Source: an uncultured Pelagibacteraceae bacterium (lineage in GTDB: Bacteria; Pseudomonadota; Alphaproteobacteria; Pelagibacterales; Pelagibacteraceae). From it: DNA of 56,843 nt. A program made the translations under genes and the position numbers. Positions 29,720 to 37,053 of the stretch are shown here, in pieces. Below the pieces are notes generated by a model. It worked only from the letters and a program-made list of their open reading frames with translations, searched no databases and was not told where the DNA came from. Numbering within the stretch: the stretch's first letter is position 1; each line of letters begins with the position of its first letter. The stretch is from the NCBI GenBank assembly GCA_902582385.1, contig CACHRX010000004.1:1-56843 (forward strand). Direction: 5' to 3'.

Positions 29720-30547
29720 TTAAAACTTTCCTAATTTTTTTGATCCGCTGTAGAATATTTTAGATAATTCATCGTTAGCTTTCTTTTGTAAGAAAATTTC
29801 ATTTTTTCCCATTAATTTTAAAGGTCTTTCTATATATTGATGAAATCTATATTCATCCTCTCCCCTTGCTTTTTGTACGTACATTTTTCCTAAAACTTGG
29901 TTAACATTAGTTCCTATATAACTTTGGATCACAAAACCTATTCTCCTATCATTACTAAGATTTAATCCTGAACCATGAACAATTGTTGGATGATGCAATG
30001 ATACCTCACCTGCTTTAAGAATTATTGGATCTGTGTTGTCTAAAGAAACATTTTCAATTGTTTGACCTCGAGTTAAAAGATTGTTGTCATCAAATTTTTG
30101 TTTATGATATTTAAGATTATCCTTATGAGAGCCTGGCACCATTCTCATACACCCATTATCTTCATTTGCATCTGTGACTGCTACCCAAACTGTGACCCAA
30201 TTATAGGGTTCTAAACCTATGTATTTTGCATCTTGATGAAAACTAACAAATCCTTTTTCATTTGGATCTTTTATAAAAAGTGTCGTACCACAAATAAGAA
30301 TATTTTTTCCAATAACGCTTTCGACTGCATCTAAAATATTTTTATTAAAACAAATTTTATTTAGAACAGGTGAAACTAGATGAACATAATTCCGATTAAT
30401 TCCTTCTAAAGAACCTGGCCAATTTTTTTCAATTTTCTCTATTTCGTCTCTTATTTCTTTTGCTTCGTTTGAACTAAAAGCACTTACAGGTGAGACATAT
30501 CCTTTACTTCTATAATGTTCTAATTGTTTAGTTGTAAGACCTGTCAT
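29720..30547 (-). CDS. Phytanoyl-CoA dioxygenase (PhyH) family protein
   Basis: 275 aa; FVSFHQDAKYIGLEPYNWVTVWVAVTDANEDNGCMRMVPGSHK, HHPTIVHGSGLNLSNDRRIGF. Confidence 0.9.
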   Translation of the reverse strand: MTGLTTKQLEHYRSKGYVSPVSAFSSNEAKEIRDEIEKIEKNWPGSLEGINRNYVHLVSPVLNKICFNKNILDAVESVIGKNILICGTTLFIKDPNEKGFVSFHQDAKYIGLEPYNWVTVWVAVTDANEDNGCMRMVPGSHKDNLKYHKQKFDDNNLLTRGQTIENVSLDNTDPIILKAGEVSLHHPTIVHGSGLNLSNDRRIGFVIQSYIGTNVNQVLGKMYVQKARGEDEYRFHQYIERPLKLMGKNEIFLQKKANDELSKIFYSGSKKLGKF

Positions 30548-31221
30548 TGAGAAAAACCATATCTTTTTTCTAAGAATTTAATCACATTATGAATAATAAA
30601 AGTCATAAAAAGATATATTCCTCCTGCTACTATAAATACTTCAATGGGTTTAAAAGTTGTGGAAATTATATATTTCGCAACACCAGTTAGATCCATTAAC
30701 GTAACTGTACTTGCCAAAGATGTCCCTTTCATCATTAAAATGATTTCATTTCCATATGCTGGTAGGGATTGTCTAATGGCTATCGGTATTTGAATTTTAT
30801 AAAAAATAATTTTACTTGGGATTCCTAAGCTTTTGCCGGCCTCTATCATGCCTGGTTTTATTGTTTGGAATGCAGATCTTAAAATCTCTGAAGTATAAGC
30901 CCCAGTATTTAAAGCAAAGGCAATAATAGCACACCAATAAGGTTCTTTTAAAATAATCCATAAAAAGGTAGATCTTAAATATTCAATTTGGCCTAATCCA
31001 AAATAAATAATAAAAATTTGAACCAACAAAGGTGTTCCTCTAAAAACATATGAATATCCATAAGCAAATCTGTTTATAAAAATATTTTTATTTAATCTTA
31101 AAATTGCAAATATTAAACCAATGAGTAAACCAATTATTAATGATACTGATAATAATTTTAAAGTAATAATGGAGGCGTTTAATAATTTTGGAAAACTATT
31201 TATCATTAACTCAAGATCCAT
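30544..31221 (-). CDS. Polar amino acid/opine-type ABC transporter permease (HisM-like)
   Basis: 225 aa; GTPLLVQIFIIYFGL, GMIEAGKSLGIPSKIIFYKIQIPIAIRQSLPAYGNE EAA loop. Confidence 0.92.
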   Translation of the reverse strand: MDLELMINSFPKLLNASIITLKLLSVSLIIGLLIGLIFAILRLNKNIFINRFAYGYSYVFRGTPLLVQIFIIYFGLGQIEYLRSTFLWIILKEPYWCAIIAFALNTGAYTSEILRSAFQTIKPGMIEAGKSLGIPSKIIFYKIQIPIAIRQSLPAYGNEIILMMKGTSLASTVTLMDLTGVAKYIISTTFKPIEVFIVAGGIYLFMTFIIHNVIKFLEKRYGFSQ

Positions 31222-31913
31222 TAATAACCCCTGCTATATTTGATCTCTAATCTATTAATTAATTTCAAACTTAAAAATGTAAGCAATAAATATAGAACTG
31301 CAGCGAAAGAATAAAAGAACAACGGATCCCTAGTAGAGCCTGCAGCAACATAAGACTGTCTCATAATTTCAACCAATCCAGTAACTGATATTAAAGAAGT
31401 GTCTTTTAAAGTAATTTGCCAAACATTACTTAAATTTGGTATTGCTAGTCTTAAAGTTTGAGGAAGAATGATTTTAAAAAATTGAAAAAATTTATTTAAT
31501 CCTAAAACTTTTGAAGCTTCAAATTGACCTTTATCAATTGACTGAATTGCGCCTCTAAATACCTCAGTTGAGTAAGCACCTGAAATAATTCCAATTGCAA
31601 ATGCTCCTGTTATAAAAGCATTTATCTCTATATATTCATTATAACCAAAAATTGAAGCAACATACATTACAGCTCCTGTTCCTCCAAAAAAGAAAAGGTA
31701 TATAACTAATAATTCTGGCACCCCTCTAATTATTGTAGTGTAAGTATTTGCAATAAAATTAAAAAATTTATTTTTTGACAATTTTAGAGGTGTAAATATT
31801 AAAGCGAAAAAAAAACCTATCAACATAGCTGTTATCGAAACAGCAATTGTCATCAGTGTAGCAATAAATAATTCATCACCCCAACCTGTTTTTCCAAATG
31901 CTAGAAGTTCCAT
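31221..31913 (-). CDS. Polar amino acid/opine-type ABC transporter permease (HisQ-like)
   Basis: 230 aa; RGVPELLVIYLFFFGG, GQFEASKVLGLNKFFQFFKIILPQTLRLAIPNLSN. Confidence 0.92.
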   Translation of the reverse strand: MELLAFGKTGWGDELFIATLMTIAVSITAMLIGFFFALIFTPLKLSKNKFFNFIANTYTTIIRGVPELLVIYLFFFGGTGAVMYVASIFGYNEYIEINAFITGAFAIGIISGAYSTEVFRGAIQSIDKGQFEASKVLGLNKFFQFFKIILPQTLRLAIPNLSNVWQITLKDTSLISVTGLVEIMRQSYVAAGSTRDPLFFYSFAAVLYLLLTFLSLKLINRLEIKYSRGY

Positions 31914-31917
31914 AATG

Positions 31918-31943
31918 AAAAGGCGATTAATTAAATAATCGCC
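31918..31943 (-). terminator. Intra-operon hairpin between binding protein and permease genes
   Basis: GGCGATTA-N6-TAATCGCC (31922-31943), minus-strand TTTTC follows then ATG of permease at 31913. Confidence 0.65.
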
Positions 31944-31958
31944 ATTTCAAATAATTTA

Positions 31959-32789
31959 TTACATAGAAGCGTCGAAACCAAACCATTTAGTGGCAATTCT
32001 ACTAATGTCTCCATTTTTTCTTGCTTGATTAATAGCTTTATTAAATGATTTTAAAAGCTCAGTATCATCTTTTCTAATACCAACTCCAACACCATTACCA
32101 AATGCTCCTCCTGAAAAAGTTGGACCAACAAGTACAACTGGTTTTCCTGATTTTTCAGAATAATCAGTAAAAGCAACAGCAGCTGCTAGCGCAACATCAC
32201 ATCTTCCCGAAGCTAAATCTAAGTTAACTTCATCTTGAGTTTTATAGGTTCTTAAATTTATTTTACCTACATCACCTGACTCTAAAAAGTTTTGGTGAAT
32301 AGTTGCAGTTTGAGTACAAACAGTTTTTCCTGCAAGAGCACTCGTTAAAGTTTTAAGAGCTTTGTTGACAGTTGAACCACCTAAAGTAAGATTTACACCT
32401 TCAGGTGTATCTATTCCTTCTAGGTCTGAACCTTTCATTACTGCTAATGATGCTACTTCATCGGCATAACCTTGAGAAAAACTAATTGCTTTTTGTCTTT
32501 CTGCAGTAATTGACATTCCTGCCATAATCGCATCAAACTTTCTCATAATTAATGCAGGAATCATACCATCCCAATCTTGTTCTACTATTGTGCATTGTTT
32601 TCCCATGTATCTACATAGTGACCAAGCCAACTCTACTTCAAATCCAATTAATTTACCTGAAGCATCTTTTGAATTCCATGGAGGATAAGCACCTTCGGTT
32701 CCAATTTTTATTTTATCAGAAGCACTCACATTTCCAATGATTAACAATGAAGCAAGAACTGAAAAAATAGTTTTTTTAAATATATTCAT
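31959..32789 (-). CDS. ABC transporter substrate-binding protein (polar amino acid family 3)
   Basis: 276 aa; signal peptide, IKIGTEGAYPPWNSKDASGKLIGFEVELAWSLC. Confidence 0.94.
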   Translation of the reverse strand: MNIFKKTIFSVLASLLIIGNVSASDKIKIGTEGAYPPWNSKDASGKLIGFEVELAWSLCRYMGKQCTIVEQDWDGMIPALIMRKFDAIMAGMSITAERQKAISFSQGYADEVASLAVMKGSDLEGIDTPEGVNLTLGGSTVNKALKTLTSALAGKTVCTQTATIHQNFLESGDVGKINLRTYKTQDEVNLDLASGRCDVALAAAVAFTDYSEKSGKPVVLVGPTFSGGAFGNGVGVGIRKDDTELLKSFNKAINQARKNGDISRIATKWFGFDASM

Positions 32790-32852: not shown

Positions 32853-33893
32853 TTAATGATTTATTGAAGACGAAAAATTCCAAGAACAATCAAAACTTGG
32901 TATGTAAACTCTAGCTAAATTTGTATTTCCAAAATGATGGTTAAATACATTAAGCCAATTTTCAACTTGAAGAGGTTTTTTATCCTGGCTCCCTACTTGA
33001 GCTGTTATAACTCCTTTTGGTTTTAAAATTCTGACTAAGGATTCCATATTTTTAGCAGCTAAATCTATACAAAATTGATCATCGTTCAAATCCACAAATA
33101 TATGATCGTAGGCATCATCACTAACTGACTTTATACTTTCAAATGCATCTCCCCATACACATTTAACTGAATTTTTTTCAGTAGCTTTTTTTCCTATTTC
33201 TCCTAAATGCCTACTACAAACATCAACAACTTCAGGATCAAGTTCGTACCAGTCAACAAAATTAAATTTTTTAGAGATACATTCTCTTGCAACACCACCA
33301 TCACCGCCACCTATTATCGCTGCTCTTTCATTTTTTTTATTTAATTTTAAACCAGCTCCAACAAAAGTTGAGCTATACAAATGTTCATCTGAAGCAGCCA
33401 CCTGTATTTCTCCATCTATAAATAATGATTTACCAAATTCTTCTAGTTCTAAAATTTCTATGTGTTGACCAACTTTAGATTTAAAATCTTCTAAAACCTC
33501 ATTAACAATATATGATTTTTGTAATCCAGGTGAGCTATAGATGTCATGATAAAGAGATTGGGTATCTCTATTAAATTCTTTTTTTACAATTCTTTTGTGT
33601 TTAAATTCTTTTTTAACAATATCAATTGCCACTGATGGGCTAACTTTTCCACAGGTAAAAAAATCAAAACTAATTATTCCCTTTTCTGGAAATGTATGAA
33701 AGCTAATGTGGCTTTCTGCTAATAAAGCTAAAATAGTAAAGCCCTGAGGTTCAAATTTATATTTAGAAATATTCAGGATAGTCACGTCTGCCGCTTTAGC
33801 GATTTTATTTATGATTTTTTCAAAAACTGAGGGATCGTACTCTTTTGTAGTACCTATAATATCTAAAGTAATATGCTCCCCAACTTTAATCAT
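32853..33893 (-). CDS. Fused S-adenosylmethionine decarboxylase (class 1B) - spermidine synthase-type aminopropyltransferase
   Basis: 346 aa; N-terminal LLAESHISFHTFPEKGIISFDFFTCG (AdoMetDC processing site), C-terminal AAIIGGGDGGVARE...ELDPEVVDVC...DHIFVDLNDD. Confidence 0.93.
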   Translation of the reverse strand: MIKVGEHITLDIIGTTKEYDPSVFEKIINKIAKAADVTILNISKYKFEPQGFTILALLAESHISFHTFPEKGIISFDFFTCGKVSPSVAIDIVKKEFKHKRIVKKEFNRDTQSLYHDIYSSPGLQKSYIVNEVLEDFKSKVGQHIEILELEEFGKSLFIDGEIQVAASDEHLYSSTFVGAGLKLNKKNERAAIIGGGDGGVARECISKKFNFVDWYELDPEVVDVCSRHLGEIGKKATEKNSVKCVWGDAFESIKSVSDDAYDHIFVDLNDDQFCIDLAAKNMESLVRILKPKGVITAQVGSQDKKPLQVENWLNVFNHHFGNTNLARVYIPSFDCSWNFSSSINH

Positions 33894-33894
33894 C

Positions 33895-34551
33895 TTACCC
33901 TTTTTTATAATTCTTAGCCTTATCTAAAACTTTTTTCATTTCTTCAAATGAAAGTATCTTAGGTTGTCCTAATTTTAAAGCAATAGTGTATTGATGACAA
34001 ATATTTTCTATCTCTTGTGCAAGTTCAAATGCATCCTCTAAATTCTTTCCAAAAGCAACCTGGCCGTGATTAGACATTAAACAAGCAGATCTATTTTCTA
34101 AAGCTTTAGTTACATTTTTAGATAATTCCTTTGTTCCAAAAGTTGCATATTCAGCACATTTAATGTCATCTCCTCCCGCTAGAGCAATCATGTAATGAAA
34201 AGGTGGAATTGATTTTCCATGTGAAGATACAGCTGTTGCGTGAGGAGAATGAGCATGAACAATAGCATGTGCTTCTTTTTTATTTGCATAAATATCTCGA
34301 TGAAATCTCCATTCGGATGATGGTTGGTTGGTTTTATCAATTTTTTCTTCTTCCTCATTTAAACCCATAAAAACAATATCTTCAGGCTTTAGTGTTTCAT
34401 ATTTTTTTCCTGATGGAGTAATTAAGTATCCCTCAATATCATCTTCTCTTCCTCTCAATGATATATTGCCTGATCTAAGAGGTGAAAGATTTGTAGAATT
34501 TAATTTTATCGAATATTCAATAATTTGATTTCTTTGATCTAAATTCTTCAT
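33895..34551 (-). CDS. Class II aldolase/adducin family protein (FucA-like; MtnB or DHAP-shunt aldolase candidate)
   Basis: 218 aa; SGNISLRG, AIVHAHSPHATAVSS, ACLMSNHGQVAFG; ATGA overlap with mtnA. Confidence 0.9.
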   Translation of the reverse strand: MKNLDQRNQIIEYSIKLNSTNLSPLRSGNISLRGREDDIEGYLITPSGKKYETLKPEDIVFMGLNEEEEKIDKTNQPSSEWRFHRDIYANKKEAHAIVHAHSPHATAVSSHGKSIPPFHYMIALAGGDDIKCAEYATFGTKELSKNVTKALENRSACLMSNHGQVAFGKNLEDAFELAQEIENICHQYTIALKLGQPKILSFEEMKKVLDKAKNYKKG

Positions 34552-35618
34552 TTGAATAATTCTTTAAGTCCTTTTTCTGATGCTTCACATACACCTTTTT
34601 CAGTAATTAATCCTGTAACATATTTTGCTGGGGTTACATCAAAAGCTAAATTCATAGCTTTACTTTTTTTTGGATAAATTTGTATTTTCTTTATGTCTCC
34701 TTTTTCATCTAAACCTTCCAAATGAGATAATTCCTCTGAATTTCTCTTTTCAATCGGAATATCTTTGTGATCTTTTATATTCCAGTCAATTGTTGAACTT
34801 GGTAGTGCAACATAAAAAGGAACTTTATTATCATGAGCCGCAAGTGCTTTAAGATAAGTTCCAACTTTATTACAAACATCTCCATTGGCTAGAGTTCTAT
34901 CTGTTCCAACAATACACATATCAACCTCACCTCTTTGCATTAATATGCCGCCTGTATTATCTGCAATGATTGTATTCTTTATTCCCTCTTCATTTAATTC
35001 ATAAGAGGTAAGATTTGCTCCTTGATTTCTTGGTCTAGTTTCATCTGCCCACACATGAACTGGAATTCCTTTTTTGTGTGCATGATAAATTGGAGAAGTT
35101 GCGGTCCCCCAATTTATTGTTGCAAGCCAACCTGCATTGCAGTGAGTTAATATATTAATTGTATCTTTTTTTTTATTATAGATTTCTTCAATTATCTTTA
35201 GACCATTTAATCCAATACTTTTACAAAATTGAATATCTTCTTCACATATATCTTTTGCTTCATTCAAAGCTATCTCTAAAATTTTATTACTATTAACGCC
35301 TGATAATTTATTCATCATTCTATCAACAGCCCAATTTAAATTTATTGCTGTTGGTCTTGAATTAATTAAATCTTCTGCAGATTTCTTTAAAAATGATTGG
35401 TCATTATTTTCAATTATAGCTAAAACCATTCCATATGCTGCTGTAGCTCCTATTAGAGGCGCACCTCTTACTTCCATTACTTTGATTGCATTTATTGCAT
35501 CATTAATATTTTTAAGATCTTTAATAATAAATTGATGTGGAAGTTTTGTTTGATCAATAATCTTTACAATATTATTTTCAAACCAAATAGTACGATATTC
35601 TTTTCCTTCTATTCTCAT
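34548..35618 (-). CDS. mtnA: S-methyl-5-thioribose-1-phosphate isomerase
   Basis: 356 aa; EVRGAPLIGATAAYGM, NILTHCNAGWLATINWGTA, WADETRPRNQGANLTSYEL, VGTDRTLANGDVCNKVGTY. Confidence 0.96.
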   Translation of the reverse strand: MRIEGKEYRTIWFENNIVKIIDQTKLPHQFIIKDLKNINDAINAIKVMEVRGAPLIGATAAYGMVLAIIENNDQSFLKKSAEDLINSRPTAINLNWAVDRMMNKLSGVNSNKILEIALNEAKDICEEDIQFCKSIGLNGLKIIEEIYNKKKDTINILTHCNAGWLATINWGTATSPIYHAHKKGIPVHVWADETRPRNQGANLTSYELNEEGIKNTIIADNTGGILMQRGEVDMCIVGTDRTLANGDVCNKVGTYLKALAAHDNKVPFYVALPSSTIDWNIKDHKDIPIEKRNSEELSHLEGLDEKGDIKKIQIYPKKSKAMNLAFDVTPAKYVTGLITEKGVCEASEKGLKELFK

Positions 35619-36487
35619 TGATTTAAAACTCTACCAGCAACAGTTTTAAGTTTTTCTATTGTCTTTTTTGTTCTTTTCTCAGGTGCTGTGATAATTGCTA
35701 CATCTAAACAACTATTAGTTGGATCTTTAGGATCGATATGTTCTTCAAAATTATTAATTAAATTTTTAATCATATTTTTTGCCTTAGCGGCATTACCTAA
35801 GAGAACCTTTATAACTTGCTGAACATCAACATTTTCATGATCAGGATGCCAACAATCATAATCAGTAACCATTGAAACAGATGCATATCTTATTTCTGCC
35901 TCTCTTGCTAACTTAGCCTCTGGCATATTTGTCATCCCAATTACATCAGCTTTCCATGATCTATATAAATTTGACTCAGCTAATGTTGAAAATTGAGGTC
36001 CTTCCATAACAACATATGTTCCATTTCTTTGATACTCAATTTTTTCTTTTTTCATAGCCTCTTCACAAGCATTCATTAAACCATTTGATGTAGGATGAGC
36101 CATAGATACATGAGCTACTATTTCATCGTCAAAAAATGTTTTTTCTCTTGCAAATGTTCTATCAATAAACTGATTTACAATAACAAATTTTCCAGGTGGT
36201 AAATCTTCTTTCAAAGATCCTACCGCAGAAATTGATACTATGTCGGTTACCCCTAACTGCTTTAGTGCATCAATATTGGCTCTAAAATTTATCTTAGTAG
36301 GTGAAATAAAATGACCTCTTCCATGTCTTGGTAAAAAGTAAATTTCTTTATTATTATAGTTAGTTTTTAAAATTTTATCAGATGTTTTTCCCCAAGGAGT
36401 ATCTAATTCCAGAAGTTCTCTTTTTTTAAATTCTTCTACATCATATAGACCACTTCCTCCTATTATTGCTAATTTATTTATTGCCAT
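35615..36487 (-). CDS. mtnP: S-methyl-5'-thioadenosine phosphorylase
   Basis: 290 aa; IIGGSGLYD, FLPRHGRGHFISPTKINFRANIDALK, VVMEGPQFSTLAESNLYRSW, GMTNMPEAKLAREAE. Confidence 0.96.
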   Translation of the reverse strand: MAINKLAIIGGSGLYDVEEFKKRELLELDTPWGKTSDKILKTNYNNKEIYFLPRHGRGHFISPTKINFRANIDALKQLGVTDIVSISAVGSLKEDLPPGKFVIVNQFIDRTFAREKTFFDDEIVAHVSMAHPTSNGLMNACEEAMKKEKIEYQRNGTYVVMEGPQFSTLAESNLYRSWKADVIGMTNMPEAKLAREAEIRYASVSMVTDYDCWHPDHENVDVQQVIKVLLGNAAKAKNMIKNLINNFEEHIDPKDPTNSCLDVAIITAPEKRTKKTIEKLKTVAGRVLNQ

Positions 36488-36525
36488 GTTTAAAAATTAA
36501 TTTATTTATAGTTTAATAAACTATT

Positions 36526-37053
36526 ATGAATTTAAAAGATTTTATTCGATCTATTCCAGATTATCCTAAAAAAGGGATATTATTTAGAGATATAACTACT
36601 CTAATAAAAGATGAAAATGCTTTTGCAGAAACAATTAATCAAATAATCGAAAAATCAAAAAAATATAAATTTGATAAAATAGCAGCTATAGAGTCTAGAG
36701 GATTTGTATTTGCTTCAGCAGTTTCTTATATTTTAAAGAAGCCTTTTATAATGCTTAGAAAAAAAGATAAATTACCAGCTGATGTGCATTCAGTAGATTT
36801 TGAACTTGAGTATGGAACTGCCACCATAGAAGTCCACAAGGATTCTATTAATCAAAATGATAAAGTATTAATAATAGATGATCTAATAGCTACTGGTGGA
36901 ACAGCAGAAGCATCAGCAAAATTAATTGAACTTTCAAAAGGCAAAGTTGCTGCTTTTATTTTTGTTATTAATTTATTTGATCTAGGTGGTTCAGATAATT
37001 TAAAAAAAAATGGTTACAAAACAGAAAACTTAATTGATTTTCCAGGACATTAA
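36526..37053 (+). CDS. apt: Adenine phosphoribosyltransferase
   Basis: 175 aa; IRSIPDYPKKGILFRDITTLI, ESRGFVFA, VLIIDDLIATGGTAEA. Confidence 0.96.
   Translation: MNLKDFIRSIPDYPKKGILFRDITTLIKDENAFAETINQIIEKSKKYKFDKIAAIESRGFVFASAVSYILKKPFIMLRKKDKLPADVHSVDFELEYGTATIEVHKDSINQNDKVLIIDDLIATGGTAEASAKLIELSKGKVAAFIFVINLFDLGGSDNLKKNGYKTENLIDFPGH

Follow-up and report, generated by a model that had tools for sequence, protein, structure and literature searches.

A SAR11 operon proposed to couple spermidine synthesis to methylthioadenosine removal by the DHAP shunt, and the exchange of its aldolase for an aldolase/dehydrogenase fusion

Few cells in the sea are as abundant as the SAR11 bacteria, which depend on reduced sulfur. 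How do they deal with the 5'-methylthioadenosine (MTA) that is released when spermidine is made? In the literature we found no description of MTA handling in SAR11, and MTA is also excreted by Prochlorococcus (PMC11698098). The question is raised by a stretch of 56,843 nucleotides (nt) from contig CACHRX010000004.1, here called the window, which comes from a genome of the Pelagibacteraceae (SAR11) of 973 kb that is 82.6% complete. At positions 32853-37053 genes of polyamine synthesis and of MTA turnover stand together, and we propose, with a probability of about 0.82, that the minus-strand operon there combines spermidine synthesis with MTA removal by the MtnP-MtnA-Ald2 form of the dihydroxyacetone phosphate (DHAP) shunt, the place of the aldolase being filled in some relatives by an aldolase fused to a short-chain dehydrogenase (SDR). 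The proposed operon would answer the question as far as DHAP and 2-(methylthio)acetaldehyde. The reactions of the shunt are already known, and so is the SAR11 SpeE fusion (PMC8437039, citing its ref. 69). What is new is the exchange of Ald2 for the aldolase/SDR fusion, which points to a second enzyme for the aldolase step.

Gene order and the proposed route

Gene identities, order and conservation were computed directly. The five open reading frames lie where a sequence-only reading of this DNA had placed them, as follows (aa, amino acids).

36526-37053, plus strand: apt, adenine phosphoribosyltransferase, 175 aa (TIGR01090 200.6 bits, cut-off 185.85)
36488-36525, no strand: divergent intergenic region of 38 nt between apt and mtnP, defined from the sequence
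35615-36487, minus strand: mtnP, 5'-methylthioadenosine phosphorylase, 290 aa, start of the operon (NF006492 443.5 bits, cut-off 437; TIGR01694 308.5 bits, cut-off 274.85; order conserved in SAR11)
34548-35618, minus strand: mtnA, 5-methylthioribose-1-phosphate isomerase, 356 aa (TIGR00512 420.4 bits, cut-off 279; NF004326 455.7 bits, cut-off 271)
33895-34551, minus strand: FucA/Ald2-type class II aldolase, 218 aa, proposed to act on 5-methylthioribulose-1-phosphate and also on 5-deoxyribulose-1-phosphate (PF00596 177 bits)
32853-33893, minus strand: speD-speE fusion (speDE), 346 aa, AdoMet decarboxylase plus aminopropyltransferase and the putative MTA source (one frame with PF02675, AdoMet_dc, 97 bits and PF01564, Spermine_synth, 78 bits)

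The 4-nt overlaps of mtnP with mtnA (35615-35618) and of mtnA with the aldolase gene (34548-34551), the gap of 1 nt before speDE and the divergent apt at 38 nt were likewise as first described. One part of that description needed correction, namely that the operon ends in the aldolase; on the minus strand transcription runs mtnP, mtnA, aldolase, speDE, so the last gene is speDE. The promoters of apt and mtnP must start in, or lie close to, the 38-nt region between them. A promoter scan gave no excess over shuffled sequences, and an Rfam scan of the window returned a tRNA as its only match and no riboswitch.

MtnP and MtnA both exceed the cut-offs of their families. The closest relatives of this MtnA in named genomes belong to uncultured Pelagibacteraceae (SAR11), at 92-94% identity, and its residues C160 and D240, which we take to be catalytic, are invariant across the SAR11 alignment. 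Of 80 named Pelagibacteraceae loci, 49 have the aldolase gene next to mtnA on its downstream side, as do the SAR11 genera examined that carry the aldolase; given this conserved order, the arrangement is not due to chance. The divergent apt/mtnP pair is also conserved among the SAR11 loci compared, and a comparison with locus L205 shows purifying selection on the aldolase (dN 0.026, dS 0.338).

In the route that we propose, SpeDE would make decarboxylated S-adenosylmethionine (SAM) and transfer its aminopropyl group, releasing MTA, which MtnP would phosphorolyse to adenine, to be recovered by Apt, and 5-methylthioribose-1-phosphate (MTR-1-P). MtnA would isomerise the latter to 5-methylthioribulose-1-phosphate (MTRu-1-P), the presumed substrate of the aldolase in vivo, and the 218-aa enzyme would cleave this to DHAP, which would enter central carbon metabolism, and 2-(methylthio)acetaldehyde. 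Both the substrates and the direction of these reactions are what we infer for the operon. The same chemistry may also turn 5'-deoxyadenosine into DHAP and acetaldehyde. It seems improbable to us that 5-deoxyribulose-1-phosphate, from the 5'-deoxyadenosine of radical SAM enzymes, is the main substrate and MTA a secondary source: the Escherichia coli shunt does take both substrates (PMC10986504), but in most SAR11 loci that have the aldolase gene, the next gene after it is speDE, the source of MTA, which favours MTA while leaving room for 5'-deoxyadenosine.

There is precedent for such a route. The DHAP shunt through MtnP, MtnA and Ald2 has been proven in Rhodopseudomonas palustris, by genetics, and in Rhodospirillum rubrum, where the three genes form one operon (PMC5893883); the SAR11 genes are clustered in the same way, would carry out the same three steps and likewise come without MtnB, MtnC or MtnD. 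The SAR11 operon differs in facing apt, in belonging to a streamlined marine host and in adding speDE, and this built-in source of MTA is its distinctive feature among DHAP-shunt operons. The order mtnP-(apt)-mtnA-aldolase also occurs in other Alphaproteobacteria (loci L110, L111, L112, L122, L123 and L127). In E. coli, where the aldolase is named MTRu-1-P/5-deoxyribulose-1-phosphate aldolase (Ald2), the shunt uses Pfs and MtnK for MtnP (PMC10986504). The E. coli system, on the leuX island, resembles the SAR11 operon in that mtnA and the gene of a FucA-like aldolase lie together (mtnK-mtnA-ald2 in strain S88); it differs in having the Pfs nucleosidase and MtnK kinase in place of MtnP, in serving the use of carbon where the SAR11 operon would salvage MTA made by the cell itself, and in an Ald2 that is closer to FucA than the SAR11 aldolase is.

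Which aldolase follows MtnA

The protein encoded after mtnA is a class II aldolase of the FucA/Ald2 type, and not MtnB, with its zinc and acid/base residues present. The FucA residues E73, H92, H94, Y113, F131, H155 and Y209 are conserved in the window protein, and every SAR11 sequence that spans the catalytic and zinc residues E73, H92, H94 and H155, or the tyrosines Y113 and Y209, retains them; the HYM motif and the C-terminal Tyr are absent from both MtnB proteins aligned. The best matches among solved structures are FucA (E. coli FucA at E ~1e-47), a similarity strong enough to put the aldolase fold beyond doubt. Also among these matches is 6btd, solved as a fuculose phosphate aldolase, which we take to be the 5-deoxyribulose-1-phosphate aldolase DrdA of Bacillus thuringiensis. 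At FucA position F206, presumably part of the aldehyde pocket, the SAR11 proteins mostly have A, V or T and sometimes Phe, the residue that E. coli Ald2 and the majority of the mtnA-adjacent relatives have; it is tempting to speculate that this relaxed position makes room for the methylthio group.

One alternative is that the enzyme is the MtnB dehydratase of universal methionine salvage (MtnB-MtnC-MtnD-MtnE), the later genes lying in the missing part of the genome. MtnP and MtnA are common to both pathways, MtnB belongs to the same superfamily, the window genome is incomplete and the window protein does match the MtnB model weakly, at 68 bits. The scores on this model (54.8-68.4 bits) fall well under the MtnB cut-off of 137.05. 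A maximum likelihood tree of 46 proteins, from which Bacillus DrdA and the Ald2 proteins of R. rubrum and R. palustris were left out, splits MtnB from the aldolase at 100/100 support, with very long branches. The missing genes were sought with curated model cut-offs in 147 genomes of the family, 53 of them at least 90% complete: neither mtnC (enolase-phosphatase) nor mtnD (acireductone dioxygenase, ARD) was over its cut-off in any, the window genome included. We take weak matches to the MtnC model in 89 genomes (best 26 bits, cut-off 128) to be other HAD phosphatases, and weak ARD matches in three (best 22 bits) to be other cupins. We therefore reject the MtnB identity, on score, tree and the absence of mtnC and mtnD, and consider this alternative close to refuted. 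The sequence-only reading had already called the protein FucA-like and had seen no mtnC or mtnD nearby. Neither a grouping with MtnB nor mtnC or mtnD elsewhere in the genome was found, and its view of the aldolase is supported; together with the published mtnP-mtnA-aldolase systems, these results make its DHAP-shunt interpretation appear well founded up to DHAP and 2-(methylthio)acetaldehyde.

It could also be argued that the protein is an ordinary sugar aldolase, for L-fuculose-1-phosphate or D-ribulose-1-phosphate, which sits in the operon by happenstance. FucA gives the best models (172-200 bits, under their cut-offs) and the best solved structures, and FucA and Ald2 differ little; for the FucA equivalog TIGR01086 the score is 171.9 bits against a cut-off of 400.25, which E. 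coli Ald2 also fails to reach. Nevertheless, the gene is translationally coupled to mtnA, and a SAR11 aldolase without mtnA occurs only in two genomes (G091 and G093) where the contig start cuts the aldolase gene. The gene is replaced one for one by the aldolase/SDR fusion, itself linked to mtnA in other Alphaproteobacteria. In the tree two other mtnA-adjacent aldolases cluster with the SAR11 proteins, with support, and this group next joins aldolases that mostly adjoin mtnA, which places it within the alphaproteobacterial mtnA-adjacent aldolases. A sugar aldolase in this place is thus very unlikely, and an MTRu-1-P aldolase remains our preferred assignment. No other PF00596 protein was found in the window genome (82.6% complete).

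Other routes for MTA were sought in the same 147 genomes. The MTA-isoprenoid shunt (RuBisCO-like protein and cupin) also shares MtnP and MtnA with the SAR11 operon, and is rejected because a RuBisCO-like protein is absent from the window genome; one of the 147 genomes has it. A route through MtnN and MtnK was likewise discarded, as no MtnN over the cut-off was found in the family; no genome-wide search for MtnK was made. A short MtnN-like protein, under the TIGR01704 cut-off, was seen in nine genomes, eight of which lack mtnA (G005, G012, G026, G028, G040, G078, G140 and G143; Fisher p = 8e-5), and it is possibly another means of MTA disposal in those SAR11.

Exchange of the aldolase for a fusion

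The slot after mtnA, which in the proposed route requires an MTRu-1-P aldolase, is not always occupied by Ald2; in about one third of mtnA-bearing SAR11 it would be filled by a RhaEW-related aldolase/SDR fusion. Exclusivity and exchange were both computed directly. The SAR11-family genomes with mtnA number 109; the Ald2-type aldolase is present in 66, the fusion (~677 aa) in 41 and both in none (Fisher p = 5e-28, for genomes that are not independent). Of the two with neither, G092 has its locus truncated where the contig ends, and G100 holds an inserted sugar-transport block. The 80 named loci gave the same picture, with 49 Ald2, 20 fusions, none with both and 11 with neither nearby. Sister genomes G109 and G101 share 92% DNA identity over the apt-mtnP-mtnA stretch and once more from the very start of speDE on; between these points the two differ by an exact exchange of ~650 bp (Ald2) for ~2.14 kb (fusion). 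An MtnA tree of 83 proteins implies at least six switches between Ald2 and the fusion, the exact number being uncertain because inner support is weak in places.

As for its identity, the fusion joins an aldolase domain to a short-chain dehydrogenase that has the YxxxK and NAD-binding motifs, and it belongs to NCBIfam NF006192, 'bifunctional aldolase/short-chain dehydrogenase' (901.7 bits, cut-off 639). The only characterised relative that we found is RhaEW, an enzyme that splits L-rhamnulose-1-phosphate into L-lactaldehyde and DHAP and uses NAD+ to oxidise the L-lactaldehyde (PMC3870299). RhaEW (Bacillus subtilis YuxG, Chloroflexus) has the same two-domain architecture as the SAR11 fusion; it differs in being reported always within rha loci (PMC3870299), whereas the mtn-linked fusions form a separate clade under the RhaD-type cut-off. 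Outside SAR11, the mtn-linked clade has 39 fusions in Alphaproteobacteria (loci L165-L203), and 25 of them have mtnA, mtnP or both at a distance of at most 6 kb and in every case on the strand of the fusion; the order is mtnP-apt-mtnA-fusion in L177, L178, L183, L184 and L195 and mtnK-mtnA-fusion in L201.

Could the fusion nevertheless be an ordinary enzyme of rhamnose or another deoxysugar, placed beside mtnA in SAR11 by a coincidence of insertion? Its one characterised relative acts on rhamnulose-1-phosphate, and in SAR11 it lies on the opposite strand from mtnA. However, its scores on the rhamnose model TIGR02632 (RhaD_aldol-ADH), 441 and 456.8 bits, are under the cut-off of 567.75, where a rhamnose-type relative (L300) reaches 1026.8 bits. 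The fusion clade is separate from the rhamnose-type fusions, none of whose 11 members is mtn-linked and one of which adjoins L-rhamnose isomerase, and the repeated switches with Ald2 would also be hard to reconcile with coincidence. We hold this explanation to be unlikely. From the 66 to 41 exclusivity, the sister-locus exchange, the number of switches and the mtn linkage outside SAR11 it is instead probable that the NF006192-type fusion is a second, non-orthologous DHAP-shunt aldolase for MTRu-1-P and 5-deoxyribulose-1-phosphate and converts the aldehyde as well, widespread in Alphaproteobacteria and exchanged with Ald2 at least six times in SAR11.

The economical reading of its two domains is that the fusion would perform the Ald2 step and probably also handle the aldehyde; if it works like RhaEW, the oxidation product would be methylthioacetate, or acetate from the 5-deoxyribulose-1-phosphate series. 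With the two enzymes exchanged at one and the same locus, MTA sulfur and carbon may end up in different products among related SAR11 cells. Searches of the literature for the fusion with MTA or with the DHAP shunt returned no report; a 2020 paper on a bifunctional shunt (PMC7237333) was outside their scope. The fusion is a candidate for the aldehyde-converting enzyme, which the R. palustris paper describes as a putative alcohol dehydrogenase only (PMC5893883). It is the exchange that would surprise a specialist, and through it the aldehyde step of the shunt becomes directly testable.

Reach of the route and neighbouring genes

Whether the sulfur is salvaged as methanethiol and returned to methionine, beyond mere disposal, is an extension of the proposed route and not an exclusive alternative to it. 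In R. palustris methylthioacetaldehyde passes aerobically through 2-(methylthio)ethanol to methanethiol (PMC5893883), and SAR11 require sulfur in reduced form, for example methionine or methanethiol (PMC8437039). On the other side, the R. palustris paper assigns no enzymes to the conversion of methylthioethanol to methanethiol (PMC5893883), the E. coli shunt serves carbon use without sulfur salvage (PMC10986504), and the window holds no candidate for any step beyond methylthioacetaldehyde; the genome was not searched for O-acetylhomoserine sulfhydrylase. Full salvage would thus be a tentative reading, at somewhat less than even odds.

Several points besides the lack of such a candidate weigh against the DHAP-shunt interpretation. 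The L-rhamnulose-1-phosphate taken by RhaEW differs from MTRu-1-P in its C4 configuration. In the tree Ald2 and FucA of E. coli group together, and this Ald2 scores as FucA-like; Ald2 and FucA are inseparable by sequence alone, so the assignment of the aldolase rests on context. An MtnB-type enzyme can act as an aldolase on 5-deoxyribulose-1-phosphate (PMC6079011), from which it follows that class II aldolases are promiscuous. In SAR11 all 41 fusions are encoded on the strand opposite to mtnA, at a distance of 40-2603 bp (L072-L075 are examples), hence the two are not co-transcribed there. Outside SAR11 exclusivity is not absolute, as G345 combines an mtn-linked fusion with a second, separate protein of FucA/Ald2-like type. 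Nine mtnA loci (L264, L268-L274 and L281) have neither aldolase inside the 6 kb fetched. The SpeDE fusion is the sole protein of the SAR11 operon with biochemical data. The operon also bears on a published proposal that has SAR11 SpeE running backwards to degrade spermidine (PMC8437039). The reverse reaction needs MTA, and a coupled MTA-removing pathway would work against it.

In the inspected loci among these nine, a sulfatase-family gene (PF00884) comes after mtnA, and after that TRAP-transporter-like and FAA-hydrolase genes; several have a PhyH gene between mtnP and mtnA, and speDE was not within the fetched stretch. Between mtnA and the fusion, SAR11 loci L068 and L079 carry an enoyl-CoA hydratase and a CoA-binding protein, and L069, L070 and L081 a small multidrug-resistance-type protein. 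An alphaproteobacterial genome of 1.4 Mb (G176, locus L126) has an Ald2-like gene followed by a 340-aa class II aldolase, a relative of the fusion's aldolase half.

Downstream of the operon, an amino-acid ABC transporter lies ~60 nt beyond speDE in many SAR11 genomes, the window included, where Lys/Arg/Orn-type transporter genes occupy 30544-32789 on the minus strand, as they follow speDE in the window's genus. Such a transporter after speDE would perhaps import a putrescine precursor. In another SAR11 genus a carbon-nitrogen hydrolase takes the place of the ABC transporter after speDE.

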